A DNA stretch of 64,000 nt from Streptococcus urinalis 2285-97 (lineage in GTDB: Bacteria; Bacillota; Bacilli; Lactobacillales; Streptococcaceae): assembly GCF_000188055.2 (NCBI RefSeq), contig NZ_AEUZ02000001.1, positions 1,502,001 to 1,566,000 of the forward strand, in the 5' to 3' direction. Positions 1-13,702 of the stretch are shown here, piece by piece. The position numbers and the translations under genes were made by a program. Under the pieces are notes generated by a model. The model did no database searches. It was not told the DNA's origin and was given only the letters and a program-made list of their open reading frames with translations. Position 1 is the stretch's first letter; every line of letters starts with the position of its first letter.

Positions 1-7
1 ATTGGTC

Positions 8-1129
8 ATGACTAACCATGCCATCCTGTCTGCTTCTGCCTCACACCGTTGGCTCAACTGTCCACCGTCCGTTCGATTGACGGAAGACATGCCAGATGTG
101 ACCTTAGAGTTTGCTCTTGAAGGATCAGACGCTCACGAGCTATGTGCTTATCTTATTGAGAAGGCATTGGGTAGGAAGGTGCGTGATCCAACTAAGGACT
201 TATCCTTCTACAATGAAGAAATGCAAAACTGTGCCGAGGAATATCGCAACTACGTCATGGAGCAAGTTGAGAAAGCTAAAGGCTACTCTCGTGACCCAAC
301 AGTTCTGGTTGAGCAACGACTGGACTTCTCTAAATGGGTACCTGAAGGCTTTGGAACAGGCGACTGTCTGATTGTAGCAGACGGACTGCTTCAAGTTATC
401 GACTACAAACACGGACTTGGCGTTTTAGTTGATGCAGACCACAACCCACAGATGATGTGCTACGCTCTTGGAGCTCTGGAGATGTTTGTTGGGCTCTATG
501 ATTTTGACAAAGTCACTATGACCATCTTTCAACCACGGAAGAACCACATCTCCACCTTTGAGATAGATAAGGTTGAACTGCTTGATTGGGCGGAAAACGA
601 ACTCTCACCCAAAGCTGAACTTGCCTTCAAAGGGGAAGGGGAGATGACCTCCGGTAAACACTGTCAGTTCTGTAAGCTCAAGAATGTCTGTCGCAAACGT
701 GCAGAGGATAACTTGGCACTCGCCAAGATGGAATTTGCGAACCCTGCTACTCTAGACTATGAGGATATTGCAGAGATTTTACCTAAACTGGACTTGCTGG
801 TTTCGTGGGCAAATGATGTCAAAGCCTATGCTTTGAAAGAAGCAACTGAAGGATACAATATTCCAGGCTACAAACTGGTAGAAGGACGTTCCGTTCGTAA
901 GTTTTCAGACGAAGTTGCCGTCAGTCAAGCTGTGATTGAAGCTGGCTTTGACCCTTACGAAAAGAAACTCCTAACTATCACTGCCATGACTAAACTCCTT
1001 GGCAAGAAAACCTTTAATGACCTACTTGGTGGTCTGATTGTAAAACCAAGCGGTAAACCGACACTCGTTCCTCTTGATGATAGTCGTCAAGAGATGAACC
1101 TAGCAACAAATGAATTTAAAGAGGACTAA
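8..1129 (+). CDS. DUF2800 family protein (PD-(D/E)XK nuclease-like), mobile-element replication module
   Basis: About 373 residues, the usual size of the DUF2800 proteins that open the replication module of many Firmicute prophages and integrative elements. The start at position 8 gives the family-typical N terminus MTNHAILSASASHRWLNCPP; an in-frame TTG two codons earlier is less likely. Near residues 217-231 is a Cys cluster (HCQFCKLKNVC) of the kind that binds an iron-sulfur cluster in Cas4/RecB-like nucleases. An acidic DxK-type core (CLIVADGLLQVIDYKHG) suggests the nuclease fold. The stop lies 4 bp before the next gene, so they form an operon. The ribosome-binding site falls outside the window. 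Nuclease function is inferred from the family, not shown here. Confidence 0.88.
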   Translation: MTNHAILSASASHRWLNCPPSVRLTEDMPDVTLEFALEGSDAHELCAYLIEKALGRKVRDPTKDLSFYNEEMQNCAEEYRNYVMEQVEKAKGYSRDPTVLVEQRLDFSKWVPEGFGTGDCLIVADGLLQVIDYKHGLGVLVDADHNPQMMCYALGALEMFVGLYDFDKVTMTIFQPRKNHISTFEIDKVELLDWAENELSPKAELAFKGEGEMTSGKHCQFCKLKNVCRKRAEDNLALAKMEFANPATLDYEDIAEILPKLDLLVSWANDVKAYALKEATEGYNIPGYKLVEGRSVRKFSDEVAVSQAVIEAGFDPYEKKLLTITAMTKLLGKKTFNDLLGGLIVKPSGKPTLVPLDDSRQEMNLATNEFKED

Positions 1130-1133
1130 TCTT

Positions 1134-1697
1134 ATGACAATGAAAGCAAAAACAACAAAAGTGATCACTGGTAAAAACACACGCTTCAGCTACTTGAATG
1201 CCAATGAACCAAAATCCATCAATGGAAGTACACCAAAGTACAGTGTCTCCCTCATCATTCCAAAGGATGATATTGAGACCATCGATAAAATCAAAGCAGC
1301 AATTGAACTTGCCTACAAGGAAGGCGAATCTAAGCTCAAAGGTAATGGAAAATCTGTCCCAGCACTTTCTATCCTTAAAACACCGCTTCGTGACGGAGAC
1401 TTAGAACGCCCTGATGACGAGGCTTATCGCAATGCTTACTTCGTCAATGCCAACTCGCCACATAAGCCTGGGATCGTTGACGGTAATCGCCAAGAGATTA
1501 TCGATACTTCTGAGCTTTACTCAGGCATCTATGGTCGTGCGTCTATCTCCTTCTATGCCTTTAACTCTAACGGTAACAAGGGAATTGCTTGTGGACTTAA
1601 CAACCTGCAAAAACTCCGTGACGGAGAACCACTTGGTGGACGTACTCGTGCAGAAGACGACTTTGCGACCGATGATGACGATGATTTCTTGAACTAG
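1134..1697 (+). CDS. DUF2815 family protein, probable single-strand DNA-binding protein
   Basis: About 187 residues. The start at 1134 is chosen because AAAGAGG lies just upstream; an in-frame ATG at 1110 overlaps the previous gene. The protein matches DUF2815, which sits between DUF2800 and a family A polymerase in phage and ICE replication modules and is generally treated as a single-strand-binding or annealing factor. The C terminus is strongly acidic (DDDDDFLN), as in SSB proteins that recruit partners through their tails. It is probably co-transcribed with both neighbours. The biochemical role is inferred from family and context. Confidence 0.87.
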   Translation: MTMKAKTTKVITGKNTRFSYLNANEPKSINGSTPKYSVSLIIPKDDIETIDKIKAAIELAYKEGESKLKGNGKSVPALSILKTPLRDGDLERPDDEAYRNAYFVNANSPHKPGIVDGNRQEIIDTSELYSGIYGRASISFYAFNSNGNKGIACGLNNLQKLRDGEPLGGRTRAEDDFATDDDDDFLN

Positions 1698-1768
1698 GAT
1701 GATCGTATCAGATAATACTTCTGGTGGCAGCACTCCTGCCACCTTTTATGAAAGGACAAGAATGGAAA

Positions 1769-3718
1769 ATGAAAGAATTGAGTATTGATATCGAAACATA
1801 TTCAGAAGTTGATTTACGAAAATCTGGTGTCTACCGCTATGCAGAAGATCCTTCCTTTGAAATCCTTCTTCTTGCCGTATCAATCGACAATGGACCAGTG
1901 AGGGTTTATGACTTAACCATGGAAGAACTTCCCAAAGAGATTATTCAGGCTCTCGTTGATGACACTATTATTAAGTGGGCTTTTAATGCTTCCTTTGAGC
2001 GTATTTGTCTGTCTAACTGGATGAAAAAACATCACCCTGATTTCTTGACTGAGGAGTTCCTATCTCCAAACTCATGGCGATGCAGTATGGTTTGGTCAGC
2101 ATATCTTGGCCTACCACTCTCACTTGAAGGAGTCGGAACTGTCCTCAAGCTAAAAGAACAGAAACTTAAAGAAGGTGGAGACTTAATCCGCTACTTCTGT
2201 CTCCCCTGTAAACCGACCAAGGTCAATGGTGGACGAACACGAAACTTTCCCAGTCACTCACCTGATAAATGGTCTGCTTTTATCGATTACAACCAGCGTG
2301 ATGTTGAGGTGGAATTGGCCATCAAAGACAAACTCCGTAACCACCCTGTTCCTGACTTTGTTTGGGACGAATACCATCAAGACCAGAGCATCAATGACCG
2401 TGGAATTGGTATTGATGTGGACTTTGTCAAAGCAGCTATTGCCATTGACGGGGAAAGTAAGACTAAAATCCAAGAAGAACTAAAAGAGCTTACTGGACTT
2501 GAAAATCCCAACTCCGTTCTTCAGATGATTGCTTGGTTACGAGAACACGGAGTGACCACCGATTCACTGGATAAAAAAGCTGTTAAAGAACTTCTCAAAA
2601 CCGTCGATGAAAAGACAGCCAAAGTCCTTAAGTTAAGACAACAGGCAGCTAAATCCAGCGTCTCTAAATACCAAGCTATGATGAACTGCGTCTGTAAGGA
2701 TGGCAGGGCTAGAGGCATGTTCCAGTTCTATGGAGCCAATCGAACAGGTCGTTGGGCTGGACGCTTAGTGCAACTCCAGAACCTACCTCAGAACCATCTT
2801 CCTGACCTTGAGGAAGCTAGAAAACTTTTCAAAACTGGGGACTTAGGAGCTACTGATCTACTTTACGACACGCAGGATACCCTATCACAACTTATTCGAA
2901 CTGCTTTTGTTCCAAGTAAGGGTAAGAAGTTCATTGTGTGTGACTTCTCTGCTATTGAGGCGCGTGTTTTGTCTCATCTTGCAGGAGAGGCATGGCGGAG
3001 CAAGGTCTTTGAGCAAGGGAAAGACATCTACTGCATATCTGCTTCACAGATGTTTGGAGTTCCAGTCGAGAAACATGGGCAAAACGCAGACCTTCGTCAA
3101 AAAGGGAAAATTGCGGAGTTGGCTTGTGGATATGGCGGAGCAGTTGGTGCTCTTAAAGCAATGGGAGCTATTGATATGGGACTTGAGGAACAGGAGCTGC
3201 AACCACTTGTAGATTCATGGCGACAGGCTAACCCCAACATAGTTCTCTTTTGGTGGGACGTGGATAGGGCTGTGAAAACTGCAGTCAAAGAGCAAGTCCA
3301 AACCGAGACGCATGGTATTCAATTCGAAGTTACCAAAGGGATGTTATTCATAACTCTCCCATCTGGACGCAAACTATCCTACGTTAAACCTAAAATAAGC
3401 GAGAACCAATTTAGTGGAGAATCTGTCACCTACGAAGGTACAGGAACTGCTAAACGCTGGGAACGACTTGAAAGTTATGGTCCAAAGTTTGTCGAAAATA
3501 TCGTCCAGGCCATCAGCCGTGATATTCTTGCCTACTCGATGAGACAACTTAGTGAGTTCAAGATTGTTGGTCATGTTCATGATGAAGTCATCATTGAGTG
3601 TGAGAAAGACCAAAGCCTTGAAGATATAGCAAGTCTAATGGGTATAGCACCTAACTGGATGTCTGATATTAACCTCAGAGCTGATGGGTATGAATGCTCA
3701 TTCTATCAGAAAGACTAG
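1769..3718 (+). CDS. Phage-type DNA polymerase I (family A)
   Basis: About 649 residues. The N-terminal exonuclease motif (SIDIETYSEVDL) is followed by polymerase motif A (CDFSAIEARVLSHLAG), motif B (RQKGKIAELACGYGG) and motif C (GHVHDEVIIE), so the 3'-5' exonuclease and polymerase cores both look intact. There is no 5' nuclease domain, as usual for phage and integrative-element enzymes. The start at 1769 gives the conserved N terminus; an ATG at 1748 is also possible. It is the last gene of the DUF2800-DUF2815-pol module and ends at a strong terminator. The genes that normally follow in such elements (VirE-like primase, VRR-NUC, SNF2 helicase) are missing, so the element is truncated or rearranged here. 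Confidence 0.92.
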   Translation: MKELSIDIETYSEVDLRKSGVYRYAEDPSFEILLLAVSIDNGPVRVYDLTMEELPKEIIQALVDDTIIKWAFNASFERICLSNWMKKHHPDFLTEEFLSPNSWRCSMVWSAYLGLPLSLEGVGTVLKLKEQKLKEGGDLIRYFCLPCKPTKVNGGRTRNFPSHSPDKWSAFIDYNQRDVEVELAIKDKLRNHPVPDFVWDEYHQDQSINDRGIGIDVDFVKAAIAIDGESKTKIQEELKELTGLENPNSVLQMIAWLREHGVTTDSLDKKAVKELLKTVDEKTAKVLKLRQQAAKSSVSKYQAMMNCVCKDGRARGMFQFYGANRTGRWAGRLVQLQNLPQNHLPDLEEARKLFKTGDLGATDLLYDTQDTLSQLIRTAFVPSKGKKFIVCDFSAIEARVLSHLAGEAWRSKVFEQGKDIYCISASQMFGVPVEKHGQNADLRQKGKIAELACGYGGAVGALKAMGAIDMGLEEQELQPLVDSWRQANPNIVLFWWDVDRAVKTAVKEQVQTETHGIQFEVTKGMLFITLPSGRKLSYVKPKISENQFSGESVTYEGTGTAKRWERLESYGPKFVENIVQAISRDILAYSMRQLSEFKIVGHVHDEVIIECEKDQSLEDIASLMGIAPNWMSDINLRADGYECSFYQKD

Positions 3719-3724
3719 ACACAA

Positions 3725-3762
3725 AAAACGGTTCACTACTAATTCAGGTAGTGAACCGTTTT
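3725..3762. terminator. Strong intrinsic terminator after the polymerase gene
   Basis: Perfect 15-bp stem (3725-3739 with 3748-3762) and an 8-nt loop. The arms begin with an A run and end with a T run, so it can act on both strands: for the polymerase operon (+) and the TenpN-like gene (-). Confidence 0.9.
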
Positions 3763-3776
3763 ATATGTGATAAAAA

Positions 3777-4319
3777 CTATTTCCTTAATTGATTGATGAA
3801 ATCTTCCTTGGAAATTGCTATTCCCAATTCATCATGAAAGTTGCGTAGAGTGCTAAATCGGTATGGGGTCAATGTTCTAAAAGTGACAGTTTCTCCCTTT
3901 TCAATCTTTGAACAAATCTCAATATACTTATTTACGTAATTCTTAACTCGTGAGAAAATACGATTTGAATTTCTTAGATAAAAAATCTTCTCATTTGGAT
4001 TTTTAAAGTGATATATTCTTGAATTGTCAATATATTTTTCCTCAATAATCGTCAACTTACTGAAATCTAAAGTCTTCAGACACATTCTTCCATCGTGACG
4101 TCTATAGGTTGTGTAAGGAAATAAATGACTTGCATTCCTAAGATGCTCAGGAATACCGGAGCGAAGCGGAATTGCAATCAGTTGATTATTGATATCAAGA
4201 ACCATAACACCATGGCCACGCGCATTATCTTCTTGAAACTCATCTAAATATTGGTAAGTATCGAAATAGTCTTGAGTTAATAGATGAAAATACAGACTAT
4301 TCTTATTGATTTTTGACAT
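3777..4319 (-). CDS. TenpN-like toxin (ToxN/AbiQ superfamily endoribonuclease) of a type III toxin-antitoxin locus
   Basis: 180 residues. The pattern fits TenpN-type toxins: an early GHGVMVLDINNQLIAIPLRS block, a middle KTLDFSKLTIIEEKYI block, and a C-terminal YRFSTLRNFHDELGI block. Members of this superfamily are RNases that cut cellular RNA and their own antitoxin precursor and are held inactive by the processed RNA. The assignment is supported independently by two tandem RNA repeats immediately upstream (4345-4440) behind a consensus promoter, the defining layout of type III systems. There is only a weak Shine-Dalgarno match, which fits low toxin translation. These systems often act in abortive phage defence or maintenance of mobile elements. 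It was recognised from memory of the family, so the subtype (TenpN rather than ToxN or CptN) is less certain than the class. Confidence 0.82.
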   Translation of the reverse strand: MSKINKNSLYFHLLTQDYFDTYQYLDEFQEDNARGHGVMVLDINNQLIAIPLRSGIPEHLRNASHLFPYTTYRRHDGRMCLKTLDFSKLTIIEEKYIDNSRIYHFKNPNEKIFYLRNSNRIFSRVKNYVNKYIEICSKIEKGETVTFRTLTPYRFSTLRNFHDELGIAISKEDFINQLRK

Positions 4320-4342
4320 AAACTAAATCTCTATCATACGAA

Positions 4343-4440
4343 AAAAGGGCCTTTCTTTTTAGAGTCGCGACCCTTACGACTACATCAACTTTAGAGTATT
4401 TTCTTTTTAGAGTCGGTATTACTCTCCGACTACTTCTACT
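4343..4440 (-). ncRNA. Type III antitoxin RNA: two ~48-nt repeats with pseudoknot potential
   Basis: Read on the minus strand. Two tandem copies share the core CGACTCTAAAAAGAAA, with a period of 48-50 nt. Copy 1 has stem GTCGG/CCGAC (4426-4430 with 4412-4416). Its loop AGAGTA (4420-4425) is complementary to TACTCT (4393-4398) just after the A-rich linker. Copy 2 has stem GTCG/CGAC (4377-4380 with 4364-4367). Its loop AAGGG (4371-4375) is complementary to CCCTT (4345-4349) at the same relative place. Different sequence with kept pairing is covariation and supports H-type pseudoknots, the fold of ToxI-class antitoxins. Only two repeats are present. Transcription should start near 4437, at the first repeat. 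Confidence 0.82.
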
Positions 4441-4443
4441 TAA

Positions 4444-4471
4444 ATTATACCAAAAACATCGCTAGTGTCAA
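4444..4471 (-). promoter_or_regulatory. Consensus promoter for the antitoxin RNA
   Basis: On the minus strand, a perfect -35 TTGACA (4466-4471) and a perfect -10 TATAAT (4444-4449) are separated by 16 bp. It sits directly before the first antitoxin repeat. Strong transcription of a short RNA ahead of a poorly translated toxin fits type III logic. Confidence 0.87.
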
Positions 4472-4480
4472 ATATAAACA

Positions 4481-5077
4481 CTATTTCGGATTTAATTCCT
4501 TCAATAAGGCCGCCACCAGAGCACGAGCTTTTGGCAAGCGATAAAATCCTGTAGAACGTTTGACCCCAATCTTAATAAACACATCCTCAATGCTCTCATC
4601 AAACTCTTTGGCGAGTAAGCCCAAAGTGATATCATACAAATCCTTATCGGCCTGTTTTACTTTCTCAAGTAAATCTTGCAGCATTTCTGCGAACATGAAT
4701 TCTTCTAGTTCTTCAGTAGAGCTGTGAAGAGTAGATTCATTCGTATCAATCCATTCTTCGTATGAAATAATCTCTTCAATATTTTTGGACTTACGTGTAC
4801 GAAACTCATTCAAAAAGTTCTCAACAGCATCTTTGTAGATACGCTCTGTTTGATTATATTCTTCAGAATATACTGGGATAAAAGCAACCAATACATAAAC
4901 ATTTAACCGTTTAGCTGGTCTCCAAGACCGAAGGGTATCTCTTTTGAGACGCATATCCTCAATAACTTGTTGGTTCTCAACCAACATAGGAGCTAGCACC
5001 TGCCCCTCTAAAAGTCCCACTTCTAGCGAGCATTCCTGCTTTTGACATTCGTTATAAATATTGTCCTTGTTTGTCAT
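4481..5077 (-). CDS. Hypothetical acidic protein upstream of the type III toxin-antitoxin locus
   Basis: About 198 residues from the ATG at 5077, chosen because a purine-rich AAAGTGGAAAA precedes it; an in-frame ATG at 5134 would add 19 residues that look like leader sequence. I do not recognise the family. The C-terminal 50 residues (DITLGLLAKEFDESIEDVF to the end) look helical and could hold a helix-turn-helix like sigma-region-4 or ArpU-type phage regulators, but that is a guess. The middle is acidic and helical, and there is no signal peptide or membrane segment. Its stop lies 10 bp before the antitoxin promoter, and it is divergent from the ABC-three-component operon. Confidence 0.6.
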   Translation of the reverse strand: MTNKDNIYNECQKQECSLEVGLLEGQVLAPMLVENQQVIEDMRLKRDTLRSWRPAKRLNVYVLVAFIPVYSEEYNQTERIYKDAVENFLNEFRTRKSKNIEEIISYEEWIDTNESTLHSSTEELEEFMFAEMLQDLLEKVKQADKDLYDITLGLLAKEFDESIEDVFIKIGVKRSTGFYRLPKARALVAALLKELNPK

Positions 5078-5325
5078 GTTTTCCACTTTCTGTCGTAAGC
5101 AGAGAAACGTGACAATACAAAGAACTCTTAACAAAATTTTCTGACCACATCAGCAATTCCTCTGCTAATTCATGGTCAACTGACTTTACAAGCTGAACTG
5201 CACACCTAATTTGTACTCTTAAAGTCACGGTAAATTAGATTTACTAATTTACAAAGTATCATCATTAGGCACCAACCATCTCAAATTACCTACTAGCGCT
5301 ATTCGGCAATTGAAGAATTTTACAT

Positions 5326-5389
5326 TCGCAAAACTTTTTATGCGTTCGCAAATATATTTTTGAACATCGCAATCCTGTCATGATATAAT
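5326..5389 (+). promoter_or_regulatory. Promoter of the ABC-three-component operon with phased TCGCAA repeats
   Basis: A -10 TATAAT (5384-5389) and a -35-like TTGAAC/TGAACA (5360-5366) with about 17-bp spacing. TCGCAA occurs at 5326-5331, 5346-5351 and 5367-5372, 20 and 21 bp apart (two helical turns), running into the -35 to -10 spacer. This is a plausible operator, perhaps for the small regulator encoded at the end of the operon. The promoter is fairly clear; the operator role is inference. Confidence 0.6.
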
Positions 5390-5462
5390 AAACTTAATCA
5401 TTAACGATTACTTTGTTCGACTCTATTGTATTAAATGAGATTTTGAATTCGGGGACAGATTA

Positions 5463-5487
5463 GTACAATACGGTACAGCTTGGTACA
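5463..5487 (+). repeat. Three GTACA repeats at exact 10-bp spacing in the operon leader
   Basis: GTACA starts at 5463, 5473 and 5483, one helical turn apart, just before the AAAAGGAG ribosome-binding site. It may be a second protein-binding site or an RNA-level control site. The rest of the 5135-5509 gap shows no convincing gene. Confidence 0.5.
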
Positions 5488-5509
5488 AAAATGAAAAGGA
5501 GATAATCAC

Positions 5510-6634
5510 TTGGATTTTCCCACTTATTTTAGAATACTGAAAAAATATCTTGGAGATGGCGCGACTATCCCAGAGTTTTTTCGAGAACTCATTGAAATGA
5601 TTACTGATGATGACGCCGAAGATATCATTAGTGCTTCTGGTATTACATCTGACAAAGCAGATAGTACGCTTATCTCTTATACAAAGCCCAAAAGAGGCTT
5701 CACCAAGAAGATGGCAAATCAATTGCTCTACCGGGTCAATTCAGCTAATATGACGGAGTCTATTGAAAGTAGGCCAGATGAAACTATTCAGTTACTAGCT
5801 AATGAATTTAATACTTATTATCCTGATATTACTGCTGAAAATGCCTCGCAAAGAATTCCAGAAATTTTCGTTGACTTCATTAGAGAGAAAGCTGGGATGG
5901 GAATATCAACCACAGCTCAAAAAGCTACATTTATTAACCAGTCGAATCAACTCAAAAAACAATATGGACAATTCTTACTGACGGAAGCAAATAACTGTTG
6001 TGCATTCCCAGGCTGTGATAGACCACTCATTTTAACAAGAGGTGGTTTAGCATCGGAAAACTATGAGGTTTCAACCATTGAAAAAGATAAGGACGCTGAA
6101 CCACTGAATCTGATAGCCCTCTGCCCAGATTGTTTTTTAACCTATCAAGCAGAAAGTCGCAAAAAAATTGTAACAGCTCTAAAAAATGTTAAAAAGATTC
6201 TAGTCTCTGCACATAACAGCCAACAATCGATTTCTGATATGAAGTTAGATAGTGGAATTGTCTCAGTTTTGACTAGTCTCAATAAACTAAAATTTGATGA
6301 ATATGATATCTCCTATGACCCGAAGCAATTGACTGATAAGATATCACCTGAGAACAATCGTACGCTTTATCAATTGGTTAAGAACCAAGTTATTGATAAC
6401 TACTTAACCATTCAAAAAATCATTATAAATTTAGATAAACAAGGAAGAATCGATTACGAGGATATCCAATATCAAATGCGATCGATGTACAAAAAGTTAA
6501 AGGCTGCCAAGCATGGTAATCTTGAGATTTTCAATACTATTTCGGAAAAACTCCATAAAGCTACACTACAGGACATCTACTTCTGCCAGATGATTGTCTC
6601 TTACTTTATCCAAAAATGCGAGGTACTTGAATAA
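5510..6634 (+). CDS. ABC-three-component system protein with HNH-like zinc domain
   Basis: 374 residues, starting at TTG 5510 with AAAAGGAG 8 bp upstream; no ATG fits. The N-terminal ~150 residues are helical. Residues ~155-215 carry an HNH-like zinc fold: C164/C169 (CAFPGC) and C205/C208 (LIALCPDC), with the NL.ALC.DC spacing of HNH nucleases. The usual catalytic His pair is replaced (YEVSTI, residues 185-190) and the His after the second Cys pair is Phe, so the domain may be structural or nucleic-acid binding only. The C-terminal third is helical, as in the C-terminal domains of ABC-3C partner proteins. The stop overlaps the next start (TAATG). The system assignment rests on the next two genes and is linked to anti-phage or conflict functions in the literature on ABC ATPases. 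Confidence 0.8.
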   Translation: MDFPTYFRILKKYLGDGATIPEFFRELIEMITDDDAEDIISASGITSDKADSTLISYTKPKRGFTKKMANQLLYRVNSANMTESIESRPDETIQLLANEFNTYYPDITAENASQRIPEIFVDFIREKAGMGISTTAQKATFINQSNQLKKQYGQFLLTEANNCCAFPGCDRPLILTRGGLASENYEVSTIEKDKDAEPLNLIALCPDCFLTYQAESRKKIVTALKNVKKILVSAHNSQQSISDMKLDSGIVSVLTSLNKLKFDEYDISYDPKQLTDKISPENNRTLYQLVKNQVIDNYLTIQKIIINLDKQGRIDYEDIQYQMRSMYKKLKAAKHGNLEIFNTISEKLHKATLQDIYFCQMIVSYFIQKCEVLE

Positions 6635-6858
6635 TGCAATTACCAAATAAACTTTATTCCTATCAAAAAAGCACCCTAGCCTATTTACCTAGAGTGCTAC
6701 ATGAAATTAAAATGGGGAACTCAAATGTGAAAGATATCTTTCATACTATCTCAGAAGAGTTGGAGGATCCGACAGATTTCTTATCCATCATGGATTGCTT
6801 ATATACATTAAACGCCATTGAAATGACCAATGAAGGAGAGGTAACATTATGCTTATAG
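6634..6858 (+). CDS. ABC-three-component system middle component (MC6-like)
   Basis: 74 residues, beginning inside the stop of the preceding gene (1-bp overlap) and ending 10 bp inside the ATPase gene, so all three are translationally coupled. The pattern LYSYQKSTLAYLPRVLHEI, then a helical LSIMDCLYTLNAI, then a short strand (GEVTLCL) fits the small winged-helix-like middle components of ABC-3C systems. These are thought to bridge the partner protein and the SMC-like ATPase. Subfamily MC6 is my best match from memory. Confidence 0.78.
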   Translation: MQLPNKLYSYQKSTLAYLPRVLHEIKMGNSNVKDIFHTISEELEDPTDFLSIMDCLYTLNAIEMTNEGEVTLCL

Positions 6859-8507
6859 AAATGTGGTCGCCAGTCTTTAAAAAGGATGGACAAACTCGGG
6901 AACCGATTCAATTTCACCCTGGATTAAACGTTATCATGGGTATGGACTTAGCTAATAATTCTATCGGCAAATCCTCTTCTTTATTAGCAATTGACTTCAT
7001 ATTCGGAGGTAATAGCTATCTAAAATCAATTGCGGTTAAGAAATTAGGTGATCATCCTATCTACTTCTGCTTTCAATTTGAGAAAAAGTTTTATTTTTCA
7101 AGAGATACAGCCAATCCTGATATCATTATAGTGTGTGACAAGAACTACTCTCCAACTGGTGAAATAATGGACCTTGGAACGTTTCTTAACAAACTTAAGA
7201 AACGATATCATTTGGAATCCTCCGATTTATCATTCCGATTAGCTATGAGTGGTTTCTTTAGAATTGCAGGGAAAAATAATCAAAATACCGATTTCCCGTT
7301 ACAAGTTTATGCAAGCCAAAAATCTTCCGAATCCATTACAACCCTTATCCAACTATTTAATTTGTATGATAACATTGCACGATACAAAGAAAGACTTAAG
7401 GATAAGAGTGACCAGTTAACAACGTTTCGCAATGCTCGAAAATATGAATTTATCTCCAACTTAGTTGGTGGTAAAAAGCAATTCGAGCTCAACGTCTCAG
7501 AAATTAAAAGATTGGAATATGGCTTATCACACCTTCAAGATACTTATCAAGACAACATTTGTTCGGATGACATTGAGAAACATCAGCAAAAACTCCAGCT
7601 TAGAAATACTAAGTTGGAGCTAGAAAGTATTCTCCGTGATAAACAAAGACGTCTTAAGCTATTAGATATCAGTATCGAATTTGGTTTATATCCTACTGAA
7701 TCTGACTTAACAGAGCTTCAGCAATACTTCCCTGATACTAATCTCAAGAAATTATATGAAGTTGAGACCTACCACAAAAAATTGGCAACTATTTTAGATT
7801 CCGAATTCTCAACCGAACGTGAATCCCTAGTAGGTGAGATTGACGAATTAGAGAGTCAATTAGTAACTCTAAACCAAGAACTTCAAGAACTAGGAAGCAT
7901 CCCAAATCTTTCAACTGAGTTCTTAGAAAACTACTCTAAACTAACAGCAACGATCAATGCACTCAAAGAGCAAAACGAAGCCTATCTGAAAGAGTCTGCT
8001 TTATCAAAAGAAAAGTCAGAAGCAGACTCTGACTTGAAGCGTAGCACCGAAGATATACTAATAGAGTTAGAAGGAAAAATCAATGCTAAAATGCGAGAGT
8101 TCAATAATATTCTGTATCCAGATATTCGCAAAGCCCCTCAAATCAATCTCAAAGCTCATAACAGCTACTCCTTCTACACCCCAGATGATGATGGTACAGG
8201 AACTAAGTTCAAAGGGATGATTTTATTTGACCTAACCATGCTCTATCTCACTAACCTGCCAGCACTGGCACACGACTCATTACTCTTGAGTAATATTAGC
8301 TACCAAGCAACCGAAGCTCTGTTGAAGCTATATGACCAATCAAAATCACTAAATAAGCAGGTGTTTTTAGCTTTCGATAAAGCAAGCTCATACTCTCCAG
8401 AAGCTAATCAACTCTTATTAGAAAATACTGTATTGCGACTCTCTAGTAACGGAAATGAACTCTACGGTATTTCATGGAATAAAGGAGAAAACTCAGATGA
8501 AGTTTAG
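6849..8507 (+). CDS. DUF2326 ABC/SMC-like ATPase of the ABC-three-component system
   Basis: 552 residues. The N terminus has the DUF2326-type P-loop NNSIGKSS (residues 36-43) followed by the typical AIDFIFGG. Residues ~170-390 are long coiled coils broken by short turns, SMC/RecN-like. The C-terminal head has a conserved DLTMLYLTNLPALAHDSLL segment acting as the Walker B/signature region, and a final YSPEANQLLLENTVLRL stretch. DUF2326 proteins are the ATPase arm of ABC-3C systems, so this gene identifies the operon. The start codon lies within the previous gene. The ATPase motifs look intact, so the system is probably functional. Confidence 0.87.
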   Translation: MLIEMWSPVFKKDGQTREPIQFHPGLNVIMGMDLANNSIGKSSSLLAIDFIFGGNSYLKSIAVKKLGDHPIYFCFQFEKKFYFSRDTANPDIIIVCDKNYSPTGEIMDLGTFLNKLKKRYHLESSDLSFRLAMSGFFRIAGKNNQNTDFPLQVYASQKSSESITTLIQLFNLYDNIARYKERLKDKSDQLTTFRNARKYEFISNLVGGKKQFELNVSEIKRLEYGLSHLQDTYQDNICSDDIEKHQQKLQLRNTKLELESILRDKQRRLKLLDISIEFGLYPTESDLTELQQYFPDTNLKKLYEVETYHKKLATILDSEFSTERESLVGEIDELESQLVTLNQELQELGSIPNLSTEFLENYSKLTATINALKEQNEAYLKESALSKEKSEADSDLKRSTEDILIELEGKINAKMREFNNILYPDIRKAPQINLKAHNSYSFYTPDDDGTGTKFKGMILFDLTMLYLTNLPALAHDSLLLSNISYQATEALLKLYDQSKSLNKQVFLAFDKASSYSPEANQLLLENTVLRLSSNGNELYGISWNKGENSDEV

Positions 8508-8706
8508 CTACAATAAATTATGGAAACTTCTCATTGATAAAGATTGGACAAAAACAAAGCTTAGACAAGAAGCTGGGATTAGTTCTTCCACGATCGCAAA
8601 ATTAGGAAAAGGGGAAAATATCACTACTGATATTTTATTGAAAATTTGTATTACACTTGATTGTAAGATTGAAGATATAGTAGAAATTATAGATAATGAT
8701 GATTAA
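8497..8706 (+). CDS. Small Cro/CI-family (XRE/YozG-like) transcriptional regulator
   Basis: 69 residues. The start at 8497 overlaps the ATPase gene by 11 bp and has AAAGGAG at 8481-8487. Almost the whole protein is one helix-turn-helix domain: WTKTKLRQEAGISSSTIAKL, then GENITTDILLKICITLDCKIEDI. Coupling to the operon suggests autoregulation of the ABC-3C genes, with the phased repeats at 5326-5372 as candidate sites. Only 2 bp separate its stop from the IS66 end. Confidence 0.85.
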   Translation: MKFSYNKLWKLLIDKDWTKTKLRQEAGISSSTIAKLGKGENITTDILLKICITLDCKIEDIVEIIDNDD

Positions 8707-8793
8707 TTGTAAGCGCCCAATAACAAGGTACCTATCCTCTCTTCCAGTAATTCTGCTATACTGTAGAAAATAAGAATACTGGGGGATATCTGA

Positions 8794-8975
8794 ATGACCA
8801 AACAACCTATTGTTCCTTTGGAACAACTACCCATTTCTCGAAAATTTGAGAAAAAGCGAAGAATGCTCTTATCTTTCGTTGTAAAGTGAGAGAGCTTGAT
8901 CTCTCTTTTTACTCCCCTATCTCATCTGAACAAGCTATCGCTATCTTGGATAAGGTATTGTCCTATGACCATTAA
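8794..8975 (+). pseudogene. tnpA: IS66 tnpA (accessory protein), frameshifted
   Basis: Starts at ATG 8794 (MTKQPIVPLEQLPISRKFEK). Around 8855-8862 the frame breaks: read directly it ends at 8887, but shifting one frame continues as NALIFRCKVRELDLSFYSPI through ...AIAILDKVLSYDH to a stop at 8975. The span of 182 nt is one short of a whole number of codons, so one base has been lost. The intact form would overlap tnpB, as is normal for IS66. Confidence 0.8.
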
Positions 8976-9315
8976 CTTAAGTGATTTAGGCCAGGTCTAT
9001 CTGGTTTGTGGAAAAACAGATATGAGACAGGGCATTGATTCGCTCGCTTATCTTGTTAAAAGTCAATTTGACCTAGATCCCTTCTCAGGTCAGGTATTCC
9101 TCTTTTGTGGGGGGCGGAAGGATCGCTTTAAAGCTCTTTATTGGGATGGTCAAGGATTCTGGCTCCTCTACAAGCGTTTTGAAAAAGGAAAACTCACTTG
9201 GCCAAACAATGAGTATGACGTTAAGGCTCTGACTTCTGAACAATTAAACTGGCTAATGAAAGGATTTTTCATCACTCCTAACATAAACTGTACAAAAAGT
9301 CGTGATTTCTATTGA
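8965..9315 (+). CDS. tnpB: IS66 TnpB accessory protein
   Basis: 116 residues from the ATG at 8965, overlapping the end of tnpA. It carries the family signature: VYLVCGKTDMRQGIDSLAYL, FSGQVFLFCGGRKDRFKALY, and a WDGQGFWLLYKRFEKGKLTW core. Length and sequence look intact. It is needed with TnpA and TnpC for IS66 transposition, but both partners are broken here. An in-frame start at 8896 would cover tnpA coding sequence and is not credible. Confidence 0.9.
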   Translation: MTINLSDLGQVYLVCGKTDMRQGIDSLAYLVKSQFDLDPFSGQVFLFCGGRKDRFKALYWDGQGFWLLYKRFEKGKLTWPNNEYDVKALTSEQLNWLMKGFFITPNINCTKSRDFY

Positions 9316-9368
9316 AATCATGGCTTTTCTTTAGGTATAATATAGAAAACATTAGGAGGAGATCATTT

Positions 9369-10797
9369 ATGGAAGAATTACTTAAAATCATTAAACAGCA
9401 GTCTAATGAGATTGCTCTCCTTCGTGAACAAGTCGTTTATCTGACACAAAAAATTTATGGCAAATCATCTGAGAAAACGATTCAAATTAATGGGCAACTC
9501 AGTCTTTTTGAAGAAGAACAATTAACTGAAGAAAAAGCGGACTTACCCAGGTGAACTTGAAACCATTACCTATCAGCGTAAGAAGGCTAAAGGAAAACGT
9601 CAAACCATTCTGAACCAATTTAAAGCCGAAGAAAGACATTATCACCTAACAGAATGTGCTTGTCCAGATTGTCATGGGGCTCTCAAAGAAATTGGTGCAA
9701 CCGTTCAGCGTCAAGAACTGGTCTTTATTCCAGCACAGCTGAAGAGAGTTGACCATATCCAGCATGCCTACAAATGTCTGGCTTGTAGTGAGAAGACTCT
9801 CAGTGATAAAATTATCAAAGCTCCCGTACCTAAAGCACCACTAGCACATAGTCTAGGGTCTGCTTCAATCATTGCTCATACGATTCATCAGAAGTTTCAT
9901 CTTAAAGTACCGAATTATCGTCAGGAAGAAGATTGGACTAAACTTGGTTTGCCTATAACACGCAAAGAAATCGCTAACTGGCATATTAAGGCAAGTCAGT
10001 ATTATTTTGAACCACTTTATGAGCTTTTACACCAGAAATTACTAGAACAGCCCGTCCTTCATGCGGATGAAACCAGCTATCGCGTTTTAGAAAGCGATAG
10101 CCAGCTAACTTACTATTGGACCTTCTTATCTGGTAAGGATGAGAAAGAAGTAATCACTCTTTATCATCACGATAAGCGTCGTAGTGGGCTAGTTGCCCAA
10201 GAATTTCTAGGTGATTACGCTGGTTATGTTCATTGCGATATGCATGGGGCTTATCGTCAATTGGAGACTGCCAAGGCAGATAAGAGTTCTCTGGTGTTCA
10301 AAGGGCTGTGCTATTGTGATAAGATGTTTGCCTTAGAGGAGTCATGGGCTGATTTATCTTTACAAGATCGCCTGATGAAACGCCAAGATGAGTTAGAACC
10401 TTTGATGGCAGAGTTCTTTGACTGGTGTCGCAGGCAGGCTGTTCTTCCAGGCTCTAAGTTGGGACGTGCCATTGACTATAGCCTTAAGTATGAAGAAACG
10501 TTTAGAACTGTACTTAAAGATGGTAGTCTCGTCTTATCCAATAATATGGCGGAACGTGCGATCAAGTCTTTGGTTATGAGACGTAAAAATTGGCTCTTTT
10601 CACAAAGCTTTGAGGGTGCTAAATCAAGTGCTATCATTATGTCTCTATTGGCAACAGCTAAACGACATCACTTGGATAGCGAAAAATATATAGGTTACCT
10701 ACTAGAGAATCTTCCGAATGAGGAGATATTCGCCAAAAAGGAAGTTCTAGAGGCTTATTTGCCATGGGCAGAGAAGGTACAACAAAATTGTAGATAA
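9369..10797 (+). pseudogene. tnpC: IS66 TnpC transposase, frameshifted and internally deleted
   Basis: Begins at ATG 9369 (MEELLKIIKQQSNEIALLRE, leucine-zipper-like). An extra C in the CCC at 9546-9548 shifts the frame to a stop at 9554; the +1-corrected frame continues as GELETITYQRKKAKGKRQTI through a CPDC/CLAC zinc finger to the DDE core. The core keeps HADETSYRV, HCDMHGAYRQL and MAERAIKSLVMRRKNW. Near 10258-10281 the text jumps from GAYRQLE to KADKSSL, where the family normally has about 20 residues including a HxRRKF segment, so an internal deletion is likely. Transposition activity is very unlikely. Confidence 0.88.
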
Positions 10798-10860
10798 CAA
10801 AATCTTCCAGAGTCAGTGAACTTTGGAAGATTTTAATATACCTTGTTATTGGGCGCTTAC

Positions 10861-11077
10861 GTTATGACTGCTAAACAAATTCAAGAACTCCAAAAACGAA
10901 ATGCTCTTACAAAATCAAAAGTCTATCTAGATTATACATCTAGATAGACTTTCCAAGCATGATGCTTGAACATATTGAATACTCTATTTAGGTTGGAGAG
11001 AGATAATTAAACATAGATCATTCACACCGTAAAACGGAGAAAAGTTTAATGACATTTCAGGTCATAGGTCAAAAGAT
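10861..11077. other. Junk between IS66 and the adhesin: short ORF stub and a perfect hairpin
   Basis: Just after the IS end, an ATG at 10864 opens a 27-codon stub (MTAKQIQELQKRNALTKSKV...) that may be the start of a cut gene; I do not recognise it. At 10918-10952 is a perfect 15-bp stem with a 5-nt loop, without a strong T tract. No intact gene is visible. Confidence 0.5.
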
Positions 11078-13702
11078 TTAATCCTCTTTTTTCTTAGAAC
11101 CATACATAAGAGTGCTTATTAACAAAACAATTATTCCAAACAACGATAGATGAGTATTGATCTCGCCAGTAGAAGGAAGTTCAACAACACCATCTGCTTC
11201 AACTTCAGCTTTCTTATCTTTGCCTGCTTGGGCGGCATCTTCGGCTGCTTTCACGGCTGCTTCAGCTGCGGCTTCTGCGGCATCTTGGGAATCTGGTTTG
11301 CCGTTGCTATCCGCATCGTTGACGGTTACTTCTGATGTCGTTACTTGATCAAGACGTGCTTTCAACGCTTCTTTGACTGGGCCTTCTGGTAAGCTATCGA
11401 CTAACGGAGTTGCTGTACCTTTCTTCTCAGTTGTGACATCGTTCAAGCCATCTACGGCTGATTTCTCATCTGGATTAACAACACCATCTGCTTCAACTTC
11501 AGCTTTCTTATCTTTGCCTGCTTGGGCGGCATCTTCGGCTGCTTTCACGGCTGCTTCAGCTGCGGCTTCTGCGGCATCTTGGGAATCTGGTTTGCCGTTG
11601 CTATCCGCATCGTTGACGGTTACTTCTGATGTCGTTACTTGATCAAGACGTGCTTTCAACGCTTCTTTGACTGGGCCTTCTGGTAAGCTATCGACTAACG
11701 GAGTTGCTGTACCTTTCTTCTCAGTTGTGACATCGTTCAAGCCATCTACGGCTGATTTCTCATCTGGATTAACAACACCATCTGCTTCAACTTCAGCTTT
11801 CTTATCTTTGCCTGCTTGGGCGGCATCTTCGGCTGCTTTCACGGCTGCTTCAGCTGCGGAAACTCTTAGAGCAACTATACTATCAGTTATAATCTTAACT
11901 GCATCATCTACTTTATCTTGGCTTGTAAAACTATCGTTTACTACTACTTGACCTTTTTTGATAGAATCATCGTAAGCCGTTTGTTTTGTTTTATCTGCAT
12001 TAACATATATATCAGTTAACTTCAAATTAGAATCATTATCTAAAAGTCGTTGTAATTCTTCTTTCTCAACCTTTTTATAAGTATAGGTAATAGTTTGAAT
12101 ACCTGAATTGAAATTAATTGTGTTACTGTCCTGATATCCTACTGCAGTAGGAGCATTAGTCCTCTTAAATGTATAATTAGGTAACATCAATTTATCCGAC
12201 AAATCTAGAGATTGATAAGTCAGACCTGAGTATAGCTTTTCTTTAATAACATTTCCAGTTGAATCATCAACATACAATAATTTTATATAGCTACCACCTG
12301 AAGAATACTCAAACCTAGTTAAATCAAATTGTTGTAAATTTGTTCCTGACCCAGTAGAAGCAAAAATCGCAAAGCCCAACTCTTCTCTTCCCTTAGCCTG
12401 GTTAGTAGTTAGTCTACTTTTATCTAAATAGGTTTGAATATTTTTTGTGAATATTTGTCCATCATATGTCACTGTCATAGCCTTTGATTGTCCATTATAA
12501 TCAACAATCACATTTTTAAATTCGTTATTATGCGGTTGTGACTCTAATCTTCGAGCATCTTGCAACAATGTAATTGCTTTTCCACTAGCATCTGTGCCAT
12601 AAAAGGCACCAAAAGCCCCATTTTGATATCCACTAAACTTAGGATCCGCTCCTGCTTTCTGATTTACATTAGGGTTTGAGGTATTATGCCATGTGTCGAA
12701 CTTAAACCCAAAAGAATTTGGAAGGCCACCTAATCCAATACTCGCTCCTGATAGTCCAATTGTCCCTGGTGCAGTTGAAGTAAAAGCAAAAGAAACTCCA
12801 TCTCCACCGCTTCTTCCACCAACGTTGTATCCTTCATATTTATCACCTAAACTTAATCTACCTTCTAGTCTAAAAGATTCATTCATATCAATTCTTTTAT
12901 TCAAAAGTAAACTTCCAGCTTGACCTGAAACATCTTCAGTTAGTACAACAGGATTTTGGTCATCACCATGTGCTGTTCCTCTAACTTCAAAGTGGTCAAC
13001 CATATTATTTTTAGTGACAATTAGATGAGCTTTATCCACATACTCAGCAGATCCCAATGGAAACTCTTGACTACTAGATTCTCTATCAGATAAATTTAAT
13101 GAACGACGTGACCTTACTTTTGGTTTATCTACACTATCTCTTGAAGGTAACTGATATTTATCTGAGTACTCCTGCTTGTTTGGAGTATCCTGAAGGGTAT
13201 ATACCGTATCCTGTTCTTCCTTATTTTGATGTTCACCAGATACTTCGCTTCCCCTATTATTATCAACACTAGCTTTCTCCAAACTTTCATCAGCATCATC
13301 TATAGAACGCATTGTATTTACAGGAGGTACAGTAATATCTTTTTCACTTACAGTTTCTCCCAAATCATTAACTTTATCTGTATCTTCTGATGAGATATTA
13401 GAGTCTTCACTGATACCAGATTCCGAAATTTTAACCACATCATCAGGATTTATATTTTCTGTATGACCTGCTGAAACTACAGTATCTGAATTAATTGTAT
13501 TGTCCACTGAGGTTACTTCAGCCGCTTGTGTTACCTCTGCACTCATAGCACTTGACTCATCCGCCAAAACAGAATGACTATTCATTCCTAAAAATAATAA
13601 CCCGACTAATACAGAAGCAGCACCAAACTTAAACTTCTTAATCGAAAAGCGTTGTTTCGTCTGTGAAGCATCGTATTGTGTCCCTCTTGCCTTACTAAAC
13701 AT
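11078..13702 (-). CDS. LPXTG-anchored lectin-like adhesin with YSIRK-type signal and repeats
   Basis: 874 residues. The N terminus has a YSIRK-like export signal (QRFSIKKFKFGAASVLVGLL), then a low-complexity Ser/Asp/Glu-rich stretch to ~210. Residues ~215-450 form an L-type (legume-like) lectin domain (GGDGVSFAFTS; FGFKFDTWHNTSNPNVNQ as likely metal-binding loop). A MucBP-like domain follows (GGSYIKLLYVDDSTGNVIKE to ~545), then a linker and two 98-residue Ala/Lys/Asp-rich repeats plus part of a third. It ends with LPSTGE, a hydrophobic helix and GSKKKED for sortase anchoring. The layout resembles streptococcal SraP/BR-type host-binding adhesins, so a host-glycan-binding role is inferred. AAAAAAGGAG precedes the start. 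It is divergent from an AraC-type regulator that may control it. Confidence 0.92.
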   Translation of the reverse strand: MFSKARGTQYDASQTKQRFSIKKFKFGAASVLVGLLFLGMNSHSVLADESSAMSAEVTQAAEVTSVDNTINSDTVVSAGHTENINPDDVVKISESGISEDSNISSEDTDKVNDLGETVSEKDITVPPVNTMRSIDDADESLEKASVDNNRGSEVSGEHQNKEEQDTVYTLQDTPNKQEYSDKYQLPSRDSVDKPKVRSRRSLNLSDRESSSQEFPLGSAEYVDKAHLIVTKNNMVDHFEVRGTAHGDDQNPVVLTEDVSGQAGSLLLNKRIDMNESFRLEGRLSLGDKYEGYNVGGRSGGDGVSFAFTSTAPGTIGLSGASIGLGGLPNSFGFKFDTWHNTSNPNVNQKAGADPKFSGYQNGAFGAFYGTDASGKAITLLQDARRLESQPHNNEFKNVIVDYNGQSKAMTVTYDGQIFTKNIQTYLDKSRLTTNQAKGREELGFAIFASTGSGTNLQQFDLTRFEYSSGGSYIKLLYVDDSTGNVIKEKLYSGLTYQSLDLSDKLMLPNYTFKRTNAPTAVGYQDSNTINFNSGIQTITYTYKKVEKEELQRLLDNDSNLKLTDIYVNADKTKQTAYDDSIKKGQVVVNDSFTSQDKVDDAVKIITDSIVALRVSAAEAAVKAAEDAAQAGKDKKAEVEADGVVNPDEKSAVDGLNDVTTEKKGTATPLVDSLPEGPVKEALKARLDQVTTSEVTVNDADSNGKPDSQDAAEAAAEAAVKAAEDAAQAGKDKKAEVEADGVVNPDEKSAVDGLNDVTTEKKGTATPLVDSLPEGPVKEALKARLDQVTTSEVTVNDADSNGKPDSQDAAEAAAEAAVKAAEDAAQAGKDKKAEVEADGVVELPSTGEINTHLSLFGIIVLLISTLMYGSKKKED
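11183..11859 (-). repeat. Tandem 294-bp repeats in the adhesin gene (two full, one partial)
   Basis: Units at 11187-11480 and 11481-11774 appear identical at base level, and 11775-11859 matches the first 85 bp. Each encodes 98 residues. Such identity indicates recent duplication or gene conversion, and copy number may differ between strains. The repeats also create open frames on the opposite strand that are not genes. Confidence 0.93.

Follow-up and report, generated by a model that had tools for sequence, protein, structure and literature searches.

A TenpIN-type toxin–antitoxin locus with two pseudoknot-capable RNA units in phage-like DNA of Streptococcus urinalis

The window, a stretch of 64,000 nucleotides from Streptococcus urinalis 2285-97, belongs to a genome that consists of a single 2.13-Mb contig, and carries on its minus strand a promoter, two short RNA units and a gene for a TenpN-like protein, the ORF of which was matched once in that genome (Table 1). 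Positions 1-11859 of the window were matched to Streptococcus phage phiStag1 in two pieces with a mean identity of 95.6%, which makes the surrounding DNA phage-like; no tRNA was found within the window by ARAGORN. The locus occupies a swap site (3725-5134) bounded on one side by the phrog_2513 gene, labelled as sigma-70 family in one phage record, and on the other by the convergent terminator and DNA polymerase gene; hairpins like this terminator were present in the inspected empty and chimeric alleles.

Table 1. Features of the TenpIN-type locus and its flanks (window coordinates)
Feature	Position	Strand	Basis or remark
Upstream neighbour gene	4481..5134	-	phrog_2513, function not assigned in PHROG; left edge of swap site
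Promoter	4444..4471	-	TTGACA 4471-4466, 16-nt spacer, TATAAT 4449-4444
TenpI unit 1	4393..4436	-	Sequence and covariation
Inter-unit stretch, including unit 2 5′ tail GATGTA	4381..4392	-	Sequence
TenpI unit 2	4341..4386	-	Sequence, pairing, covariation, terminator scan
Short leader of toxin gene	4320..4340	-	Purine-rich AGAGA 4332-4328
TenpN-like toxin gene, 180 aa	3777..4319	-	NCBIfam NF047358; phrog_8049
Hairpin terminator between toxin gene and convergent DNA polymerase gene	3725..3762	.	Right edge of swap site
Convergent phage DNA polymerase gene	1724-3718

Several other genes were noted in the same part of the window. Beside the toxin–antitoxin locus, at 5510-8706, lie genes for a CTD11 ABC-3C protein (PF20277 at E 7.3e-51, with LmuA matched weakly), for a small protein and for a DUF2326 protein that weakly matches LmuB/PDC-M68B, together with an HTH gene; this set is likely an ABC-3C / Lamassu-type defence system. 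IS66-type genes (TnpB_IS66 and DDE_Tnp_IS66) lie at 8896-10797, and the phiStag1 match extends past them to 11859. At 11078-13702 lies the gene for a cell-wall-anchored protein that combines a YSIRK signal with a legume-lectin-like domain and with GA-like and FIVAR repeats.

The initial annotation had placed a TenpN-like toxin gene next to the RNA, and profile comparison agreed: the 180-aa protein matched NCBIfam NF047358 (TenpIN) at E 6.2e-21 over profile positions 1-141 of 141, although its score of 75.1 bits is below the curated cut-off of 90. It also matched phrog_8049 (E 3.1e-67), to which no function is assigned in PHROG. Scores against NF047358 were 64.6-74.9 bits in four subclade relatives, all below the cut-off, and 102-130 bits in the distant relatives L018, L019 and L024; since the subclade falls under and the distant relatives over the TenpIN cut-off, the subclade is a divergent branch, and identification of the window protein as a divergent TenpIN-type toxin is supported by these scores. 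Invariant columns in 12 aligned proteins include RG-G, P-RS and TL-N-H. When a profile of these 12 proteins was aligned by hhalign with nine ToxN/AbiQ proteins, 50 columns were matched at E 0.0043 with a probability of just 8%, and reversed controls gave E 0.27 and 0.23. IPLRS was aligned with PLSS in this comparison, a PL-S motif that would hold a ToxN active-site serine, and the likeness of the TenpN-like profile to ToxN is suggestive. The window protein had no ToxN_toxin (PF13958) match in Pfam at E up to 1; Pfam and PADLOC gave nothing meaningful for it, and PDB sequence searches returned weak unrelated matches alone, with no credible relative. Two AlphaFold models (pLDDT 40.6 and 34.9) were too poor for fold comparison.

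Upstream of the toxin gene, the promoter (TTGACA-16-TATAAT) agrees with the consensus at 12/12 positions, as the annotation's phrase "perfect promoter" implied, and was the sole 12/12 site among the nine promoter-like sites found by the scan (7.1 in shuffles). The predicted transcript start, near 4437-4436, coincides with the 5′ edge of that unit. On the minus strand, unit 1 contains stem 1 (GTCGG 4430-4426 / CCGAC 4416-4412), stem 2 (AGAGTA 4425-4420 / TACTCT 4398-4393) and the A-rich core TCTAAAAAGAAA (4411-4400). Unit 2 begins its stem 1 at 4380 (GTCG 4380-4377 / CGAC 4367-4364), giving a period of 50 nt from 4430, and carries the same core TCTAAAAAGAAA at 4363-4352; stem 1 and the identical core had been described from both copies in these very letters. 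For the second stem of this copy, the pairing AAGGG/CCCTT proposed earlier is present, though the stem is longer than 5 bp, with AAGGGTC (4375-4369) opposite GGCCCTT (4351-4345) forming 7 bp, one of them G-U; a T run (4346-4341) lies at its end. In the short leader that follows, the ribosome-site-like stretch is AGAGA (4332-4328), and AGAGG in most close relatives; by its letters, this substitution may lower toxin translation. No Rfam family matched the window at gathering scores, and a search of 4250-4550 at E up to 10 returned just two snoRNA families, far under their cut-offs.

The pairing of loop and downstream tail was evaluated first within the window and then across relatives. Shuffling of the loop and tail letters gave P values of 0.0065 (unit 1) and 0.002 (unit 2) for the observed pairing, and exchange of partners between the two units lowered the scores from 14 to 8 and from 16.5 to 10.5. 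Among 15 distinct loop/tail pairs from 11 loci, cognate pairing had a mean score of 13.9, compared with 10.0 for re-dealt tails and 11.0 for tails dealt within unit class; in either test 0/5000 permutations reached the cognate value. Eighteen aligned units, 16 of them distinct, gave 169 cells, of which 95.3% were paired, a share that fell to 81.8% in shuffles and to 59.6% or less when the alignment was slid; the covariation score was 0.462, against 0.216 in shuffles (0/500 as high) and at most 0.152 in slid alignments, and cells changed on both sides numbered 28 against 11.5. Two of the five measures did not exceed shuffles in this set, where kinship of the sequences was only partly controlled: pairs with two-sided change numbered 6 (mean 4.8 in shuffles, 102/500 of which were as high), and further pair types 13 (12.2 in shuffles, 192/500 as high). 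By inspection, unit 2 of L016 and unit 2 of L028 are one base out of register in the alignment, which biases it against structure, and unit 2 of L015 retains merely three uninterrupted pairs.

The second stems seen in unit 1 were AGAGTA/TACTCT, GAACA/TGTTC, GGACA/TGTTC and AGGAGG/CCTTCT, and those in unit 2 include AAGGGTC/GACCCTT, AGAGCC/GGCTCT and AGAAGG/CCTTCT. The comparison thus confirmed that each unit can form an H-type pseudoknot, in which stem 2 varies between units and relatives yet stays paired, and the compensatory change of loop and partner that the annotation had read as a pseudoknot RNA holds in the wider set. Chance repeats devoid of RNA function would be compatible with the shortness of the units and with controls that remove relatedness only partly, but the permutation, shuffle and slide controls and the presence of the units in several genera leave this explanation a negligible probability.

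Relatives of the toxin were collected from several sequence sets. The protein search matched 5/284 genomes of the genus, four closely (the own genome included) and one distantly, and one of the four close genomes held a second, distant match as well; other scans yielded four loci in species genomes, two viral contigs and three phage records, in one of which the toxin is annotated TenpN. A further viral scan for TenpN relatives added no contigs. Matches in 68 plasmid records were all below 60% identity, and the profile search matched 11/395 genomes of the order, 4/398 of the class and 7/398 of the phylum, the own genome being counted in each. The close set comprises streptococci, Enterococcus cecorum, Staphylococcus intermedius (toxin broken) and S. 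cornubiensis (toxin partial), plasmids of E. faecalis (59%), Listeria (50%) and Macrococcus (46%), and another genome of the order (L028, 54%). One phage record outside this set, L019, is a Vibrio phage placed in Tectiliviricetes; its toxin, annotated hypothetical, scored 103.6 bits with the TenpIN model and is preceded by a hairpin terminator and, before that, by a pair of nearly identical repeats.

Both units were found in 14/15 checked subclade loci with a period of 49-51 nt, several of the 14 being near-identical prophages; the exception, L010, has a partial toxin and neither unit. All ten subclade loci in which the toxin frame is unbroken kept them, as did four of the five in which it is broken or truncated (L004, L007, L010, L011, L012). 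With three further loci of the chimeric kind described below (L049, L054, L055), the toxin is broken, truncated or a remnant in eight loci, and the antitoxin units are intact in all of them but L010, which has none, and L049, which has lost 1 nt. The distance from the -10 element to stem 1 was 13 nt in the top-scoring site of 11/14 rows; it was 14 in L017, 38 in L015 (second site 13) and 11 in L054, and the site of L016 was missed by the script. A distance of 13 nt would place the transcript start at the unit 1 edge.

Among the published criteria for type III systems, a review lists a Rho-independent terminator, palindromic in form, that separates the repeats from the toxin (PMC5086642). Scanning of 150 nt 5′ of the toxin for hairpins with loops of 3-8 nt revealed no separate small-loop terminator in any of ten subclade loci (the window and nine relatives). 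Such a terminator was present in 9/9 ToxIN chimeras and in 12/14 distant TenpN-like loci (absent from L029 and L037), a sample of the distant loci in which several start positions are approximate and two members are almost identical. In 14/14 subclade loci, a T run of 6-10 ends unit 2. As a plain hairpin, unit 2 stem 2 had a predicted energy of -8.8 kcal/mol in the window and -9.4 in L013. Taken by itself, this stem is weak in L015 (-3.1), L016 (-2.8) and L017 (-4.6 kcal/mol). For these three relatives and for L028, the minimum-energy prediction combines stem 1 with an A-tract/U-tract hairpin, which makes stem 2 a less convincing terminator in some loci than in others. With 0/10 separate terminators and with stem 2 leading into the T run, no terminator candidate other than the last antitoxin unit was seen, and unit 2 probably doubles as antitoxin unit and intrinsic terminator. 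A terminator embedded in an antitoxin unit was not found among the titles and abstract beginnings listed by literature searches, which leaves its absence in print unproven.

An ordinary TenpIN locus, in which the T run belongs to no stem-2 terminator and toxin dosage is set by translation, Rho, RNA decay or the A-tract/U-tract hairpin, would be in keeping with the presence of that hairpin in the lowest-energy folds of four relatives and with a ribosome-site-like stretch that most close relatives have in stronger form than the window. It is rather unlikely in our estimate, since the T run is kept in every one of the 14 loci while the stem changes, and since most distant TenpN-like loci and all the chimeras have a terminator at this very place.

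The reading of unit 2 as terminator concerns the TenpIN allele; the swap site also exists in empty form, with AbiE, and as a chimera of TenpI unit 1 and ToxIN (L069, L074, L075 and L076 are among the swap-site loci seen). Nine chimeras were first found with the exact unit pattern, that is, stem 1 plus core. In the genus, the pattern was detected in 8/284 genomes: four held both units together with a TenpN-like gene, and four held one unit (G099, G107, G258 and G259), where the protein search had given no match; among viral sequences it was detected in seven stretches, two with both units and five with one. In 9/9 chimeras, unit 1 up to TACTC precedes a 4-nt linker (ATCC, GTCA, ATCA or TTAT), after which come a different, ToxI-like repeat beginning GGAGATTCCG, present in one to three copies, and a hairpin terminator. 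The ORF after the terminator is a ToxN_toxin match in the three loci tested (E 5.1e-33, 2.3e-33 and 1.7e-33). In L049 the ToxN ORF is interrupted and unit 1 stem 1 has a 1-nt deletion; in L054 and L055 a short remnant resembling a ToxN start was recognized by eye, and the ToxN search of these two genomes gave nothing.

Seven of the nine chimeras were reachable without the unit pattern: five viral contigs through both the neighbour gene and ToxN, and G099 and G107 through the neighbour gene, of which they hold 61-residue remnants; L057 and L058 are known from the pattern alone. The neighbour-gene search gave eight viral loci (five chimeric, two TenpIN, one empty), one of the two TenpIN calls being judged from the same contig in other scans, and the ToxN search gave six viral loci, of which five were close matches on the five chimeric contigs already named and the sixth was distant and partial. 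In the genus, the neighbour gene was matched in 26/235 genomes; five genes with at least 88% identity adjoin two TenpIN loci (own genome included), two empty sites and one AbiE pair (PF13338, PF08843; the second gene runs off the locus), and the remaining matches had 23-35% identity.

Locus L046 shares 202 nt with a TenpIN phage at 99.5% identity, and the shared stretch stops precisely where unit 1 ends. The upstream DNA of L046 is also identical to that of the window, which makes recombination between alleles likely. Across the nine chimeras, unit 1 showed 0-2 differences in 37 positions plus the deletion in L049, the 66 nt 5′ of it 0-14 differences plus gaps in some pairs, the linker 0-3 in 4, and the first ToxI-like repeat 0-5 in 34, the higher values involving single-repeat loci. 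All variable positions of unit 1 are in the loop, and one change turns A-U into G-U. This low divergence fits constraint on unit 1, in a comparison of small numbers in which the pattern itself fixed 20 unit 1 positions and the 66 nt mix a gene end with the promoter. In the chimeras, unit 1 may be a neutral scar, a stabilising 5′ leader or a retained cross-protective antitoxin. A TenpI-ToxIN chimera was not found among the titles and abstract beginnings listed by literature searches, and its absence in print is unproven; a GBS prophage with a toxN homologue and its RNA is reported as one case in the accessible text of PMC11357604.

The chimeras also bear on a reading of the two units as a cis-acting regulatory leader, an attenuator of the downstream gene with no antitoxin. 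Leader position and a terminator-like end would suit an attenuator, but this reading is very improbable in view of two 50-nt pseudoknot-capable repeats with a common A-rich core, of the TenpIN-type gene that adjoins them and of the retention of unit 1 before an unrelated toxin gene.

We propose instead that the single promoter drives an RNA of about 100 nt with two pseudoknot antitoxin units. Initiation of transcription would set the 5′ end of unit 1 and termination the 3′ end of unit 2; with the outer ends made in this way, one cut within 4381..4392, presumably by the toxin, would suffice to release two monomers. Stem 2 of unit 2 and its U-tract would end most transcripts, with no separate hairpin, and read-through past unit 2 would be the only source, in small amount, of the TenpN-like endoribonuclease, which the pseudoknots would bind and silence. 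If the antitoxin supply were lost, the freed toxin would stop growth, as in abortive infection or prophage addiction. According to PMC5377504, a published TenpIN aborts phage infection, and by analogy superinfection defence or prophage retention are likely uses of the locus; the ABC-3C / Lamassu-like gene set nearby (5510-8507) makes a defence role plausible. Taken whole, from the paired antitoxins and the terminating unit 2 to read-through toxin and prophage defence or addiction, we regard the proposal as probable. The call of a type III system made in the initial annotation has held up on the TenpIN match, on pseudoknots covarying in relatives down to 46% toxin identity and on the 12/12 promoter. 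A bolder extension, in which unit 2 meters the toxin as terminator and unit 1, kept with its promoter, is a single-pseudoknot antitoxin retained so that a ToxIN prophage can displace its TenpIN rival unpoisoned by leftover TenpN (anti-addiction or cross-immunity), is conceivable from the allele structures, though we consider it doubtful.

If unit 2 is indeed the terminator, a single RNA element sets the toxin dose as well as the activity of the antitoxin. In the chimeric loci, nature provides evidence of how addictive toxin–antitoxin modules may pass between prophages, and the subclade provides a compact, covarying TenpI set for modelling and structure work; in the accessible part of a 2016 review, solved antitoxin structures are named for ToxI and CptI only (PMC5086642).

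Among the closest known systems is TenpIN of the Photorhabdus luminescens type (NF047358), which the locus resembles in the whole-profile toxin match, about two 50-nt units and a pseudoknot-capable RNA 5′ on the same strand, but from which it differs in a score below the curated cut-off, the want of a separate small-loop terminator and a unit 2 that enters the T run. TenpI is given as 50 nt repeated 2.1 times (PMC12373285), in agreement with the two 50-nt units of the window; the two antitoxin units that had been read as a small number were indeed found, but two is normal for TenpIN. ToxIN/AbiQ (PF13958) has the gene order, an RNA antitoxin and weak profile similarity at the PL-S motif in common with the locus, and in sister prophages a ToxIN cassette sits behind the same promoter and unit 1; unlike the window locus, ToxIN has units of 34-36 nt (PMC5086642) and a separate terminator, and the window protein is without a Pfam match. 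CptIN of Eubacterium rectale is similar in its two genetic repeats, which give an H-type pseudoknot of 45 nt whose second loop is long (PMC4627078) and whose loop is described as adenine-rich (PMC5086642), whereas it forms a separate family in the three-family classification (PMC5086642); CptIN constructs name repeats and terminator (PMC4627078). AbiF-RCd22 of Clostridioides difficile likewise has two RNA motifs before the toxin gene and terminator read-through, but is structurally unlike characterised type III systems and has a separate terminator stem-loop (PMC12373285). Overall, the locus is real, correctly read and ordinary in kind, with the merged terminator and the chimeric alleles as its variant features.
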